Positions 8,523 to 17,331 of a stretch of 17,331 nucleotides of DNA are shown in pieces; position 1 is the stretch's first letter; each line of letters opens with the position of its first letter. The stretch is taken from assembly GCA_025464925.1 (NCBI GenBank), contig JAODMS010000203.1, positions 1 to 17,331 on the forward strand, in the 5' to 3' direction. A model generated the notes under the pieces. That model saw nothing but the letters and a program-made list of their open reading frames with translations. It searched no databases and was not told the DNA's origin. A program made the translations under genes and the position numbers. Source of the DNA: Arthrobacter sp. GTDB taxonomy: Bacteria; Actinomycetota; Actinomycetes; Actinomycetales; Micrococcaceae.

Positions 8523-9137
8523 GTGGCTATCACCATGAAGAGCACCTCCGGCAAACTCCTGGCCTCCGCGGCCCTCGTCGCCTCCGCCGCTGCAGTCGCA
8601 GGCCTCGGCACCTATGGCGCTTTCACGGATACCACGCAGGCTGATGTGAAAGTCGATGCCGGTGACGTTGTCATCGAGCTCAATAAAGCGGGAGCTAACA
8701 GCAACCTGGACCTCGCCGCTACGAAAATTCTTCCGGGGGACACCATCCAGCGTCTCGCCACTCTTACCAACGATGCATCCAGCCTCGCTTCGGTGTCCCT
8801 GACCACCACAGCCACGGAGTCGTCTGCGCTGACCACGAATCCAAAGCACGGTCTGCAACTCACGATCGACCGTTGCTCGGCGGCTTGGACCGGCGCTCCG
8901 GAGACCGGGTACACCTGTGCAGCCCCCGCTACTCAGAGCCAAGTGGTGGAGCGCAGCGCCATCATCGCTGCTGATCGGAAGCTGAGCGGACTGGGTGTCG
9001 AACAAACCGGAGGCGTCGATTACCTGCTCGTGACTGCGGCCTTCCCCGCCGAGGCCGAAGATAAGCTCTTCCGGAATGCAGCCGCCACTGTGAACTTCAC
9101 CTTCACCGCGATGCAGCGCAGCGGCACGAACAAGTAA
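8523..9137 (+). CDS. TasA/camelysin-like secreted protein with SipW-dependent signal
   Basis: This 204-residue exported protein begins with a signal sequence: basic start, hydrophobic core about 12-28, and 'GLGTYGAFTDTT' at 27-38. That is the typical SipW-dependent pattern seen in TasA, TapA and CalY/camelysin (M73) proteins. The mature part ('ADVKVDAGDVVIELN', 'LPGDTIQRLATLTN') fits the jelly-roll beta domain of that family, whose members form biofilm fibres or surface proteases. Two cysteines (C118, C132) could form a disulfide. I chose the GTG at 8523 because 'GGACAG' lies 5 bases upstream; an ATG at 8535 would shorten it by four residues. It is the first gene of a cluster with its likely signal peptidase, separated from it by a strong hairpin. 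No metalloprotease motif is visible, so a structural role is more likely than proteolysis. Confidence 0.82.
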   Translation: MAITMKSTSGKLLASAALVASAAAVAGLGTYGAFTDTTQADVKVDAGDVVIELNKAGANSNLDLAATKILPGDTIQRLATLTNDASSLASVSLTTTATESSALTTNPKHGLQLTIDRCSAAWTGAPETGYTCAAPATQSQVVERSAIIAADRKLSGLGVEQTGGVDYLLVTAAFPAEAEDKLFRNAAATVNFTFTAMQRSGTNK

Positions 9138-9146
9138 CCCTATGCA

Positions 9147-9180
9147 GGTTCCGTCCGCTCAATGGCGAGTGGACGGAACC
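9147..9180 (+). terminator. 14-bp hairpin between the TasA-like and signal peptidase genes
   Basis: GGTTCCGTCCGCTC (9147-9160) pairs with GAGTGGACGGAACC (9167-9180) over 14 bp, with one G-U pair, around a six-base loop. No T-run follows, so it is not a textbook terminator. It starts 9 bases after the TasA-like stop codon and 47 bases before the next start. Partial termination or 3'-end stabilisation would give more of the abundant structural protein than of its peptidase; this is inference. Confidence 0.6.
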
Positions 9181-9226
9181 ATTACCGACTGAGCCCGCGC
9201 TCGCGACTACACAGGAGGCAACAGCG

Positions 9227-9835
9227 ATGAGCACGGCCACTGCGCCCCGTCCTGGGCATACCGTCGGTGCGGCGGGGGCCGCGACTCCCGGCCGCCAAAG
9301 CACCGGACGCCGCGCAGTCTCCCGTGCTGTGGCAGTGATTTCAAGCGTCATGGTGGTCTTGGCCCTTGCTGCTTTCCTGTTCCTGGCCGTCGGCCCGAGG
9401 ATCCTCGGTTACCAGACAGCCACCATGCTGACCGGCTCCATGTCGCCGCTGATCAACCCGGGCGATGTGGTGGTCACCGCCCCGGTGCACTCCGATCAAC
9501 TCGCAGTGGGCGACATCATTACCTACCACATCCCCGTCGATGACCACCGGGTTGAAACCCACCGGATCGTGGAGGTGCTCGCCAATTCGGATGGCAGCAC
9601 TGCCGTTCGCACGAAGGGCGACGCCAACGACGGAGTGGACCCCTGGACGGCCACCCTGGTGGGCGGCACCGCCTACCGGCATGTCGCCACCGTCCCCTAC
9701 CTGGGCCATGCGATCCGGGCCCTCCGGGATCCCACGGTGAAAGCCGGACTGATGTACGGGGCGCCGGCGCTGCTGGTGGCCGGAACCCTGGCTGCGATCT
9801 GGCGCAAGAACCCGGAAGGCGAAACTGATGGCTAG
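9227..9835 (+). CDS. sipW: Signal peptidase I, SipW-like (ER-type Ser-His)
   Basis: The 202-residue protein has one membrane helix near the N-terminus (about 32-54), the catalytic box 'MLTGSMSPLINPGD' with Ser71, and 'VETHRI' with His112. In SipW-type and ER-type peptidases this His takes the place of the Lys found in ordinary bacterial signal peptidase I. 'RTKGDAND' at 128-135 is the third conserved box, and a second membrane helix lies at about 174-191. A strong ribosome site AGGAGG (9213-9218) precedes the ATG. The neighbours on both sides encode proteins with SipW-type signals, so this enzyme very likely matures them during export. Its stop overlaps the next gene's start by eight bases. 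Confidence 0.9.
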   Translation: MSTATAPRPGHTVGAAGAATPGRQSTGRRAVSRAVAVISSVMVVLALAAFLFLAVGPRILGYQTATMLTGSMSPLINPGDVVVTAPVHSDQLAVGDIITYHIPVDDHRVETHRIVEVLANSDGSTAVRTKGDANDGVDPWTATLVGGTAYRHVATVPYLGHAIRALRDPTVKAGLMYGAPALLVAGTLAAIWRKNPEGETDG

Positions 9836-10280
9836 GGGTTGGCGGGGAACCGGGCCCCGCTTTCCGGGGCTGTGGCGCCGGACCACCGCAGTTGCCGTCG
9901 CCGTCGGTATCCTTGTCGGCGTCCCGGCCGTGGCCGAAGCCTCTTTCACCGGTTCTACGCAGGCCCGGATGGCTGTGTCGACGATGGACATGAAGCCCAC
10001 CGCGACTGTTCGACAAACCTGCCACGGGGCGTCGTACACACTTGAAATCACTCCTGGGCCCGTCCCAGATCGGCTCGTAAGCACTTTCATAGTGACTGTG
10101 AATGGCAACGAAGAATCTAGAGCAAGCATCCGCGATCCGAAGCAAGTCCTCACTTACACCGACAAGAATCCTGCCGGCAAGGACGTCGTGCGGTGGACGG
10201 TCTCCAACCAGTACACGGCGCCGGGATCCTCGAACACTTGGTCAAGCCAAGAGACACCGACGGTTGTGACGTGTAAGTGA
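9828..10280 (+). CDS. Small exported protein, probable SipW-type substrate
   Basis: The ATG at 9828 lies inside the end of the signal peptidase gene (8-base overlap), so the two are co-translated. The 150-residue protein has a basic start, a hydrophobic stretch at about 19-37 and 'AEASFTGSTQA', which resembles the A-x-F-T region of SipW-dependent signals. The remainder is polar and beta-rich ('SYTLEIT', 'STFIVTVNGN', 'VVRWTVSNQYT') and has two cysteines, C65 and C149, that could link the ends of a single domain. I do not recognise a named family. It may be a minor fibre component or anchor, as TapA is for TasA in Bacillus, but there is no sequence proof. The second half (about 10010-10260) is less GC-rich than surrounding genes. 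Confidence 0.75.
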   Translation: MARGWRGTGPRFPGLWRRTTAVAVAVGILVGVPAVAEASFTGSTQARMAVSTMDMKPTATVRQTCHGASYTLEITPGPVPDRLVSTFIVTVNGNEESRASIRDPKQVLTYTDKNPAGKDVVRWTVSNQYTAPGSSNTWSSQETPTVVTCK

Positions 10281-14158: not shown

Positions 14159-14245
14159 GGCACATCGACGTGGAACCCGCCTGCTGGGGGCGGGGCGTCG
14201 GAGAGCCAGAACCCGGCACCGTGCGTGCCAGAGATGGAGATTGCC

Positions 14246-14923
14246 ATGAGCGCTGAGCAGGAAATGACCCCGTTGACCGACGACGAGCTGATGGCGCAAG
14301 CCGGAACCGCCCTCCCGGACAAGGAAGTGGCCTCCGTCCTGGACCTCAATGCGGATCTTGACCTGGGCATCAGCGCGGCCGCGCCGATCGACCTCGCCGT
14401 CGCAGCCAATGCGAATGTCGCGGCCCCGATCGATGCTGCAGCTTCCGCCAACATCCTCTCCTTCGGGTCCGAAGCCCAGGCCCTCTCGGACCAGGGCGTC
14501 ATCATCAACCAGGGCATCACCGCCGACGCGACGGCTGAATCCACGCAGGACAGCACGATCGACCAGGCCACCGACGCAGGCACCGCCGAACCCGCAGCCG
14601 AGCCGGGCACCGCGGAGGCCGGCACCGCCCCCGACCTGGGCGCGTTGCCCACAGACGCCGCAGCCGCAGCCGGCGCCGTCAACGGCAACCTCCTCAACGT
14701 CAACGTGGACCTCGACGCCAACGCCGACATCGCCGCCCCGATCAACGGTGCTGTCGCTGCCAACGCCAATGTCGCAGCTCCGATTGATGCCGCCGTGGCG
14801 GCCAACATCGGTTCCATCGACAGCGACGCCTTCGCCGTGGCGCAGCAGGATGCCATCATCACGCAGAACATCGAGGGCGAAGCGACGGCCACGGCCGACC
14901 AGCAGTCCGATCTGAAGCAGTAG
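14246..14923 (+). CDS. Acidic Ala/Asn/Asp-rich protein with nested repeats, possible substrate of the adjacent M50 protease
   Basis: The 225-residue protein has no recognised family. It contains no Cys, Trp, Tyr, His or Arg and is strongly acidic. Residues about 8-30 ('TPLTDDELMAQAG', then 'TALPDKEVASVL') resemble leader peptides of exported or modified peptides. Two related halves follow: about 32-110 and about 149-225, joined by an Ala/Glu/Pro-rich linker. Each half contains two 14-residue units of the type AAPI-x-x-AVAANANV (starting at 45, 59, 163 and 177), then a stretch with 'GVIINQGI' or 'AIITQNIE'. There is no signal peptide or membrane helix. The ATG at 14246 has GGAG seven bases upstream. 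The membrane protease gene starts seven bases after the stop, so the two are coupled; a substrate, cargo or fibre role is inference. Confidence 0.8.
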   Translation: MSAEQEMTPLTDDELMAQAGTALPDKEVASVLDLNADLDLGISAAAPIDLAVAANANVAAPIDAAASANILSFGSEAQALSDQGVIINQGITADATAESTQDSTIDQATDAGTAEPAAEPGTAEAGTAPDLGALPTDAAAAAGAVNGNLLNVNVDLDANADIAAPINGAVAANANVAAPIDAAVAANIGSIDSDAFAVAQQDAIITQNIEGEATATADQQSDLKQ

Positions 14924-14930
14924 CTCCCCG

Positions 14931-17331
14931 ATGAGTACTCCGCACAGCGGGCCGTCCGAAGCGGACGGCCCGCTGGCCTCCCCTGCCATCAGCACGCAGC
15001 AGCTTCCCGTCCGGGCCGACGGGATCCAGCTGATCGGCGAGACCAAGGGCTCCGGCTACCGCGAGGCGCCGTCGCTGGTCCGGCGCGCCGACGGCCAGAC
15101 GCTCCAGCTCACCCGCCTGCTCTACCTCGTTCTCGAGGCGATCGACGGCACCCGCGGCGCCGAGGAAATCGCGGAACACGCCAGCGCCAGCTTCGGCCGG
15201 CTGGTCAGTGCGGACAACGTCCGGACGCTGATCGACTCCCAGCTGCTCCCGCTGGGGCTGCTGCGGCTGGCCGACGGCTCGCAGCCCGAGGTCCGGAAGT
15301 CGGACCCGCTGCTCGGGATGCGCTTCCGCTACACCGTCACCGATCCCGAGCGCACCCGCCGGATCACCGCACCGTTCACCTTCCTCTTCAACCCGCTGAT
15401 CGTCGTGGCCGTGGCCGCCGGGTTCCTCGCCACCTGCTGGTGGGTGCTGATGGTCAAGGGCCTCGCCTCGGCCACCCATCAGGCCTTCGCCAATCCGGGC
15501 CTGGTGCTGCTGGTCCTGGCGGTCACCGTGTTCTCCGCCGGGTTCCACGAGTTCGGCCACGCGGCCGCGGCCCGCCGCGGCGGCGCGACCCCCGGAGCCA
15601 TGGGCACCGGCCTGTACCTCATCTGGCCCGCCTTCTACACCGACGTGACCGACTCCTACCGGCTGGGCCGGGCAGGCCGGCTCCGGACCGACCTCGGCGG
15701 GCTGTACTTCAACGCCATCGTGGCCGTGGCGATCATGGGCATCTGGTGGGCCACCGGCTTCGACGCGCTGCTGCTCGTCGTCGTGACCCAGCTGGTGCAG
15801 ATGGTCCGGCAGCTCCTGCCGCTGGTCCGGTTCGACGGCTACCACATCCTCGCCGATGCCACCGGAGTACCGGACCTGTTCCAGCGGATCAGACCCACGC
15901 TGCTCGGCCTCCTGCCCTGGCGCCGCAAGGACCCCGAGGCGCAGCTCCTGAAGCCCTGGGCCCGCGCCGTCGTCACCGCGTGGGTGCTCGTCACCGTGCC
16001 GCTGCTGCTCTTCAGCCTGGTGGTGATGGTCCTGTCCCTGCCCCGGCTCCTCGGCACGGCCTGGGCCAGCGCCCAGAAGCAGTACGCCATGCTCGCGACC
16101 AGCCTCGGCGACGGTAACTTCCTCGACGCGTCGGTGCGGGTCCTGGCGCTCGCCGCCGTCGCGCTTCCCGTCCTGGGAATCCTCTACGTCCTGCTCCGCC
16201 TGGCCCGGCAGCTCACCGCCGGGCTGTGGCGGAAGACGCGCGGCAAGGCGCTCCGGCGCGGAACCGCGGTGGCCGCGATCGCCGCCGTGGTGGCCGGCCT
16301 GGCCTGGGCGTGGTGGCCCGCCGGCGAAAGCTACCGCCCGGTCCAGCCCTACGAGCGCGGCACCCTGGCCGACGCCACCACCGCCATCTTCCCGGCCGGT
16401 TCCACCGGCCCGATGAGGTCCGGCCAGGCCGGCCGGACCGTGGCCCTGTGGCCGGCCGGCACAACGAAACCCACCCGCGAGGAACCGCAGCTGAGCATGG
16501 TCCTGGTCCCCCGGCAGTCCGGCGCCTCCGCGAACACCGGCGGCTCCGGCACGGCGGAGGCCCCGGCCGCGGCGCCGTCGTGGGTGTTCCCGTTCGATCT
16601 GCCGGCCGCTCCCGGGCAGGACGGCAACCAGTCGCTCGCCGTCAACACCACCGACGGCTCCACCGTCTATGACGTTGCCTTCGCCCTGGTCTGGGCCGAG
16701 GACGGCGACGCGGTGGACACCCGCAACGAGGCCTATGCCTTCGCCAGCTGCACCGACTGCGCCGCGGTGGCCGTGGGCTTCCAAGTGGTCCTGATCGTGG
16801 GCCAGACCGACGTGATCGTCCCCGAGAACCTCTCGGCGTCCGCGAACTACAACTGCGTCCGGTGCCTGACGTACGCCCTGGCGAGCCAGCTGGTCCTCAC
16901 CCTGGACGGTCCGCTGAGCGCCGACGGCACGGCCAGGCTCGATGCGCTGTGGCAGGAGATCGCGGAATTCGGCAGGAACCTGCGAAACGTGCCGCTCTCG
17001 GAGATCCAGGGCCGCCTGAGCGTCTTCAAGGAGCAGGTTCAGCAGCTCGTCAAGAACGATCCCAGCGCCACCCCGGCCGGCCGCTCCCCCGCTGCCACGG
17101 CACCGGCTGCTCCCGGGACCCCGTCGCCGGGAGCAACGCAGACCCCCGTCCCCGGCGCAACGCAGCCGGCACCACAGCCCGCGCCATCGACCGGCAGTCC
17201 GGCGTCGGTTGGTCCCGCGCCGGCCACCACCTCGGCGGCGCCTGCGCAGCTTGCTCCGGGTACGGGGCGGGCCCCCGGCACGGCACCGTCCGTGCCGCAG
17301 CCGACGCAGACCGCGGGCACGGCCACCGAGC
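14931..17331 (+). CDS. PqqD-like/M50-type membrane metalloprotease, incomplete at the window end
   Basis: The frame is open from the ATG at 14931 to the last base (800 codons visible). Parts in order: a PqqD-like winged-helix domain at about 40-113 ('LTRLLYLVLEAIDGTRGAEEI'); membrane helices near 150-175 and 187-210, the second carrying the zinc motif H206-E-F-G-H210; 'LVRFDGYH' with Asp302, the third M50 zinc ligand position; and further helices near 258-290, 346-375, 401-425 and 444-463. An outer domain follows with two CxxC pairs, C607/C610 and C642/C645. From about 709 there is a disordered Pro/Ala/Thr/Gln-rich tail. It resembles proteins annotated as putative peptide zinc metalloproteases (YydH-like). 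It likely binds a peptide leader through the PqqD-like part and cuts or exports it; that function is inferred. Confidence 0.82.
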   Translation, partial: MSTPHSGPSEADGPLASPAISTQQLPVRADGIQLIGETKGSGYREAPSLVRRADGQTLQLTRLLYLVLEAIDGTRGAEEIAEHASASFGRLVSADNVRTLIDSQLLPLGLLRLADGSQPEVRKSDPLLGMRFRYTVTDPERTRRITAPFTFLFNPLIVVAVAAGFLATCWWVLMVKGLASATHQAFANPGLVLLVLAVTVFSAGFHEFGHAAAARRGGATPGAMGTGLYLIWPAFYTDVTDSYRLGRAGRLRTDLGGLYFNAIVAVAIMGIWWATGFDALLLVVVTQLVQMVRQLLPLVRFDGYHILADATGVPDLFQRIRPTLLGLLPWRRKDPEAQLLKPWARAVVTAWVLVTVPLLLFSLVVMVLSLPRLLGTAWASAQKQYAMLATSLGDGNFLDASVRVLALAAVALPVLGILYVLLRLARQLTAGLWRKTRGKALRRGTAVAAIAAVVAGLAWAWWPAGESYRPVQPYERGTLADATTAIFPAGSTGPMRSGQAGRTVALWPAGTTKPTREEPQLSMVLVPRQSGASANTGGSGTAEAPAAAPSWVFPFDLPAAPGQDGNQSLAVNTTDGSTVYDVAFALVWAEDGDAVDTRNEAYAFASCTDCAAVAVGFQVVLIVGQTDVIVPENLSASANYNCVRCLTYALASQLVLTLDGPLSADGTARLDALWQEIAEFGRNLRNVPLSEIQGRLSVFKEQVQQLVKNDPSATPAGRSPAATAPAAPGTPSPGATQTPVPGATQPAPQPAPSTGSPASVGPAPATTSAAPAQLAPGTGRAPGTAPSVPQPTQTAGTATE

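Follow-up and report, generated by a model that had tools for sequence, protein, structure and literature searches.

RRE domains, like M50 enzymes embedded in the membrane, are familiar from work on short modified peptides. MpaP, an intramembrane peptidase fused to an RRE, has been proposed to cleave the leaders off daptides (PMC10036551), and EpeP has been suggested to combine cleavage of an epipeptide with its export (PMC10885120). We describe a two-gene locus of Arthrobacter sp. at positions 14246-17331 of the window, which is the whole stretch of DNA analyzed (17,331 nucleotides; assembly GCA_025464925.1, contig JAODMS010000203.1). One gene encodes a repeat protein of 225 amino acids, referred to below as the product, and the next encodes a membrane protease that joins an RRE domain, an M50 core, and a CxxC-bearing outer domain. 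We favor, with some reserve, the view that the pair is a stand-alone maturation module for leader-guided cleavage of the product, its delivery to the surface, and its assembly on a tethered look-alike. No description of this gene pair was found in the open-license literature; subscription papers lay outside the search.

The product gene lies at 14246-14923 of the plus strand (stop codon at 14921-14923), with GGAG at 14236-14239 as its likely ribosome-binding site. The protease gene starts seven bases 3' of it on the same strand and is still open at the end of the window (14931-17331). An acidic 225-residue repeat protein encoded seven bases upstream of a PqqD-like/M50/CxxC protein was what an original prediction, made from this DNA alone, had described, and the arrangement was confirmed. 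The product is rich in alanine, with 35 acidic residues, 2 basic residues, and no cysteine. It consists of a leader (approximately residues 1-30), repeat 1 (residues 31-107; 14336-14566), a variable linker (residues 108-147; 14567-14686), and repeat 2 (residues 148-225; 14687-14920). The two repeats are related far beyond chance, with an alignment score of 186 that was reached in 0 of 2000 shuffles (shuffle maximum, 69). Mean column conservation in an alignment of 38 products, composed of the window's own and those of 37 of the 80 related loci introduced below, was 0.75 for the leader, 0.80 for each repeat, 0.46 for the linker, and 0.32 for residues 1-7. The conserved leader region spans residues 8-30 (TPLTDDELMAQAGTALPDKEVAS; 14267-14335). 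The original prediction had named LTDDELMAQAG as the recognition region; the leader motif is indeed conserved, but it is longer than that, and its best-kept stretch, LPDKEV, comes directly after.

The product and protease genes are kept together across many actinobacteria. A scan of one genome per species with the protease alignment, which relied on two short peptide patterns, yielded 168 confirmed relatives. The best-scoring 80 were kept, and the pairing count describes this close family only. The 80 come from Arthrobacter, Pseudarthrobacter, Sinomonas, Nocardioides, Kribbella, Phycicoccus, Pedococcus, Mycetocola, Naasia, Mycolicibacterium, Planosporangium, and other genera. A product homolog was located directly upstream on the same strand in 80 of 80 protease loci, although in L051 it is only a 50-amino acid fragment. 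The distance between the stop codon of the product gene and the next protease start in frame, with starts found mechanically and L051 left out, had a median of 7 bases and fell between -4 and 40 in 78 of 79 loci; the gap was 389 bases in one locus. Likewise, among 21 genomes around and including a Mycolicibacterium carrier, the protease was present in 3, the product in the same 3, and neither in the other 18. The original prediction had stated in advance that protease homologs usually lacking such a repeat protein would speak against it, and in the close family this was not the case.

No third gene family was conserved beside the pair in 28 diverse loci, and the other families common to at least 5 of the 28 were shadow frames of both pair genes or scattered enzymes. 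These data bear on the idea that the product is a modified peptide whose core-modifying enzymes are encoded elsewhere in the genome, with the pair performing only the last step. Radical SAM, LanKC, or YcaO genes do stand beside distant M50 relatives. However, no conserved modification gene, and no conserved radical SAM partner, was found near the 28 loci, the neighborhoods to which the search for such enzymes was confined, and cysteine is absent from 38 of 38 aligned products, both as the original prediction had claimed for the window. We regard this explanation as very improbable.

Homologs are numerous, with at least 3840 product-like and at least 4496 protease-like proteins at E values up to 1e-3. 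Names among the 120 listed for each were hypothetical protein, peptidoglycan-binding or -bound protein, and putative peptide zinc metalloprotease. The peptidoglycan-binding name, given to many of the listed product homologs, was rejected since no Pfam, NCBIfam, or PDB sequence match lay behind it. The same searches found no known domain above cut-off in the product. Weak matches of a few single members to unrelated models, GLTT repeat and FliH, were taken as effects of composition. The pair had no PADLOC match as a defense system. A role as phage or plasmid cargo was also set aside: no protease match was found in phages and no confirmed relative in viral contigs, and plasmids held 0 product relatives and three protease relatives, all distant.

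The protease begins with an RRE/PqqD-like domain (residues 21-116; 14991-15278), followed by the M50 membrane core (residues 139-435; 15345-16235) with HEFGH at 15546-15560 and D-G at 15834-15839. HExxH and the second D-G motif, by which M50 membership was judged, are invariant in 38 of 38 aligned proteases. Structural alignment of a predicted model matched a site-2-protease-like membrane core, with middling Z scores, and an RRE-like domain; both folds are supported by the model, not proven. Foldseek gave no match at E up to 0.001 for the whole protease. SpoIVFB with pro-sigmaK was among the structural matches, which would suit regulated intramembrane proteolysis, in which a cytosolic partner is held and released by the protease, in the way that SpoIVFB acts on pro-sigmaK, and the output is a signal without export. 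Genes for BTAD regulators also lie beside two of the loci with short partners described below, L123 and L125. We nevertheless consider such signaling quite unlikely, because no known domain of the product scored above cut-off, and the conserved Ala/Asn/Gln repeats, together with a unit apparently common to product and outer domain, suggest an extracellular, structural role.

Some more distant RRE-M50 proteases occur without this repeat protein. The claim of the original prediction that the repeat protein is the substrate is partly supported, with constant pairing in the close family, but does not extend in that form to these relatives. Five of the distant loci have short peptides with the same motif upstream, and the logic of a leader-bearing substrate is therefore supported. 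The motif common to window-type and short-type partners is roughly [E/Q/D]L-x7-LP-x-[K/R]. Two Streptomyces RRE-M50 proteins, at 39% identity, came from plasmid records, and no window-type product lies beside either. In NBC_00557, a small upstream ORF (open reading frame) has a window-like N-terminus, QLDAETAELLPGREAL. In S. changanensis, a ELNKLAGELLPERAVLS peptide is encoded just upstream of the protease and a near-copy farther away. The two Gly-rich peptides of this locus (L085, 3918-4145 and 5816-6076) resemble each other, bear the leader, and contain two cysteines apiece; by eye, their bodies lack the unit that product and outer domain appear to share. The motif on a unit-free, Gly-rich body indicates that the tag, not the body, goes with the protease.

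After a simple text filter had set aside the product family, the pattern [EQ]-L-x7-LP-x-[KR], drawn from the Streptomyces peptides and the window family, was present in 8 of the other 11074 ORFs, and 3 of those 8 were the Streptomyces peptides. A widened pattern, [DENQ]-L-x6-8-LP-x-[KR], was fixed before reading the loci found by protease search and is a test only for the later-read loci (L123/L115, L125/L117, L124/L116, L126/L118, and L158). Comparison of the Streptomyces protease with 20 carrier genomes yielded further copies in four of them. The widened pattern fitted 2 of 113 ORFs in Nocardioides guangzhouensis (L123), 2 of 120 in Pedococcus cremeus (L125), and 2 of 102 in L158, whose genome was found by its protease; all of these ORFs are directly upstream of the protease. 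In N. jiangsuensis (L124), 2 of 141 ORFs fitted, namely, a window-type product upstream of the protease and one shadow-frame match. Among the 80 close loci, the leader pattern was present in 78 of 80 products (not in L075 or L051) versus 31 of 10658 other ORFs. A search of 25 genomes for the proteases gave matches in 21, with high-scoring RRE-M50 matches only in G025 and G049; most of the others matched an ATPase part alone, and G046 had a weak M50-like match (L150).

Some distant M50 genes have other surroundings. On a Rhodococcus plasmid, a radical SAM gene precedes an M50-like protein (L120, 3261-5783), possibly as a peptide cluster. On a Streptomyces virginiae plasmid, a gene annotated mpaP adjoins LanKC and YcaO genes (L121, 82-5505). 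An E. coli plasmid carries an M50-like region within a gene annotated as HlyD family (L122); its neighbors are TolC, two more adaptor genes, and a gene for a giant Ig-like protein, and the annotation of the 10.4 kb retrieved shows no ABC ATPase.

At E up to 1e-3, the short-peptide family comprises 878 proteins, and the named ones among 120 listed are called hypothetical or uncharacterized. The consensus of 50 of the 120 listed is ELxxExAELLPxRETL, then NxANVxAxNxAxAVNAxSxxSxAxAxAxQxIxVxQ. Profile-profile comparison aligned these peptides with the window-type products over 67 columns, in which the leaders match each other and so do the cores (E 2.9e-5, probability 74%), at a score of 34.5 compared to 19.5 or less in 200 column shuffles. 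The short-peptide model also gave 18.3 bits for the L053 product and 14.8 bits for that of L056. From these profile comparisons, the window product fits best into the short-peptide family as an extended member with two units. A second copy in N. jiangsuensis (L124, 6063-7694) has a much longer product with many VVDSAGNVIGTLD-like linker repeats.

Such kinship raises the question of antimicrobial or signaling peptides, produced as short pairs, with the window protein as an enlarged form and the protease as a leader peptidase of the bacteriocin type. Peptides occur in pairs at L123, L125, and L158, ABC transporter-like genes adjoin the L158 locus (by eye), and MpaP and EpeP serve such peptides. 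However, no immunity-like or transporter family was common to five or more of the 28 loci, and a product of 200 amino acids with repeat conservation near 0.80 is unlike a fast-changing bacteriocin. On these grounds an antimicrobial or signaling role seems unlikely.

The outer domain of the protease (residues 466-712; 16326-17066) has four invariant cysteines. It is preceded by an extra hydrophobic, likely transmembrane segment (residues 443-465; 16257-16325) and followed by a variable tail rich in Pro, Thr, and Ala (residues 713-800; 17067-17331), which is cut by the window end. The outer domain can also be free. In the Streptomyces locus L084 it is not on the protease and is encoded instead by a separate downstream gene (BLASTP 3e-10; hhalign 96.7%), to which the homology covers residues 580-717 of the window protease. 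Free outer-domain genes with a hydrophobic or signal-like N-terminus were found in L084, L123, L125, and L158 (L123 and L125 by alignment, L158 by eye). In Arthrobacter sp. 9AX, an extra free copy with a signal-like N-terminus comes immediately before the pair (L037, 6349-7143), and pattern and BLASTP searches found no other among the ORFs of the 80 loci. In L123 (6812-9292), L125 (5075-7777), and L158 (6273-8576), one protein combines RRE, M50, and a MinD/ParA-like ATPase, the last of which forms its end in place of the outer domain. The ATPase matched PF01656 in L123 and L125 (2.9e-10 and 7.1e-9), and its motif was seen by eye in L158. The hydrophobic segment that precedes the window-type outer domain has no counterpart at that place in L123 and L125; therefore, judged from hydropathy, the ATPase is expected on the inner side of the membrane and the outer domain on the outer side.

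The product and the outer domain appear to share a unit of approximately 21 residues, [ND]x3[AS]xNxx[SC]xx[SC]x5[AS]xQ, in which the product has SxxS and the outer domain CxxC; this is supported, not proven, and the original prediction had not noted it. The pattern fits residues 63-83 in repeat 1 (DAAASANILSFGSEAQALSDQ; 14432-14494) and residues 181-201 in repeat 2 (DAAVAANIGSIDSDAFAVAQQ; 14786-14848), both in the SxxS form, as well as protease residues 633-653 in the CxxC form (NLSASANYNCVRCLTYALASQ; 16827-16889). The first CxxC stretch of the outer domain, identified by eye (residues 599-618; 16725-16784), is one residue shorter than the unit. In low-confidence models, a strand follows the second S/C at all four places (product 77-92 and 195-210; outer domain 613-623 and 648-658). 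The pattern was present in 35 of 38 products, 35 of 38 proteases (all in the CxxC form), and 23 of 25 outer domains, and had two matches in 10580 background ORFs: the L051 protease, which the filter had missed, and the free outer domain of L037. A profile of 25 outer domains (22 fused, 3 free) aligned with the short peptides over 30 ungapped columns (P 8.6e-4, probability 23.5%) at a score of 23.8, above all of 200 shuffles (19.0 or less). Common descent of the two units is plausible, not proven, from these comparisons. A product-like outer domain could also mean that the partner is held permanently in a stable complex, uncut, while the M50 site acts on another substrate. The leader motif on different bodies and the intact HExxH, however, predict recognition of a substrate, and a permanent complex is highly improbable in our judgment.

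Taken together, we interpret the protease as an RRE-guided leader protease, because it has a tag reader and an intact membrane protease, its upstream partner bears the tag, and the tag is kept when the body changes. In the maturation module that we favor, the RRE domain would bind the N-terminal tag of the partner, EL-x7-LP-x-K/R then E-V/T, and the M50 core would, by analogy with known enzymes, remove the tag at or near the membrane. The remaining repeat protein would then reach the outside, exported by the protease itself or by an unseen helper, and meet the outer domain, which would present the same unit with CxxC replacing SxxS. Acting after cleavage, the tethered outer domain could serve as receptor, chaperone, or nucleator of a product that stays bound to the surface and is possibly fibrous. 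If so, common soil actinobacteria have an unrecognized surface protein for which a substrate tag, a protease, and a receptor can be named; the likeness of the outer domain to the product suggests a way for the protease to guide assembly too. A bolder version, in which one membrane protein reads the leader on an unmodified protein, cuts it, exports it, and nucleates its polymerization on a disulfide-stapled copy of the unit, is a tentative idea that we doubt more than we believe. If true, it would give actinobacteria a fiber or surface layer made by an export-and-assembly route without description in the literature searched. The ATPase of the sister branch (L123, L125, and L158) is a possible energy source, as a hint only.

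Several results weigh against the maturation module or its parts. Regarding export, no energy source or channel was visible in the window-type system, and the product has no signal peptide, nor any stretch that reached signal-peptide hydrophobicity. The structure model of the product was poor (predicted local distance difference test, 54) and too uncertain for a structure search. The statistics for the shared unit are modest. Its pattern was drawn from these families after seeing them; the outer domain aligned with the window-type product at the same stretch only weakly (P 0.011, probability 3.9%); and the short peptides contained the pattern in 15 of 50 cases in strict form and 37 of 50 in a relaxed S form. 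With a model of the peptide core, 14 of 25 outer domains scored above the shuffled 95% point (2.1) and 2 of 25 above the shuffled maximum (8.9), with the window's own at -0.1. The short-peptide model gave the window product 5.3 bits, below one of 1000 shuffles (5.8). Regarding the leader, the window-type leader profile found nothing with E below 1 in the Streptomyces loci, where the L084 peptide ranked 2nd and the L085 peptides about 13th and 19th. In L126, the weakest relative (E 7e-12, 132 residues), the 1 of 152 ORFs that fitted the widened pattern lies away from the M50 gene; in L120, the sole fitting ORF overlaps the radical SAM gene; and no ORF of the more distant loci L121, L086, and L122 had the leader pattern.

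A possible second surface-protein locus lies 4-6 kb upstream of the pair (8523-10280). It encodes a camelysin-like protein (PF12389), of a kind related to TasA, then a look-alike of SipW-type signal peptidases that was recognized by eye and had no Pfam match, and a third small protein.

Compared with described systems, the window protease is most like MpaP in having an RRE domain fused to a site-2-protease core and a leader-bearing substrate. All 38 aligned proteases match the MpaP model NF041824; however, the window protease scored 105.7 bits, below the cut-off of 300, its substrate is a repeat protein of 225 amino acids, and it has the CxxC outer domain. Daptide precursors have an invariant C-terminal Thr, whereas the window product ends in Gln and Thr was C-terminal in 0 of 36 aligned sequences. 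A daptide cluster includes an oxidative decarboxylase, an aminotransferase, and a methyltransferase, whereas only the pair is conserved in the 28 loci (daptide genes were not searched singly). The epipeptide M50 proteases EpeP, YydH, and LiaK resemble the window protease in the M50 core, where it matched their model NF058609 at 32.8 bits, far below the cut-off of 225; the window system differs in its protein-sized substrate and in the RRE and outer domains of its protease. The site-2 proteases SpoIVFB, RseP, and MjS2P have a similar membrane-core fold, to which the window protease adds the RRE tag reader and the product-like outer domain. In curli, the repeat product CsgA and its anchored relative CsgB, which starts assembly, have units containing Asn, Gln, and Ala. 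The likeness is in the idea of a repeat product with an anchored relative, and no homology is claimed; at E up to 1, the 38 products matched 11 Pfam families between them, and the curlin repeat was not one of these. Relative to these precedents, what appears new is a protein-sized, apparently unmodified product together with a tethered CxxC version of its own unit, such that the RRE/M50 logic of short modified peptides would here serve a whole protein.

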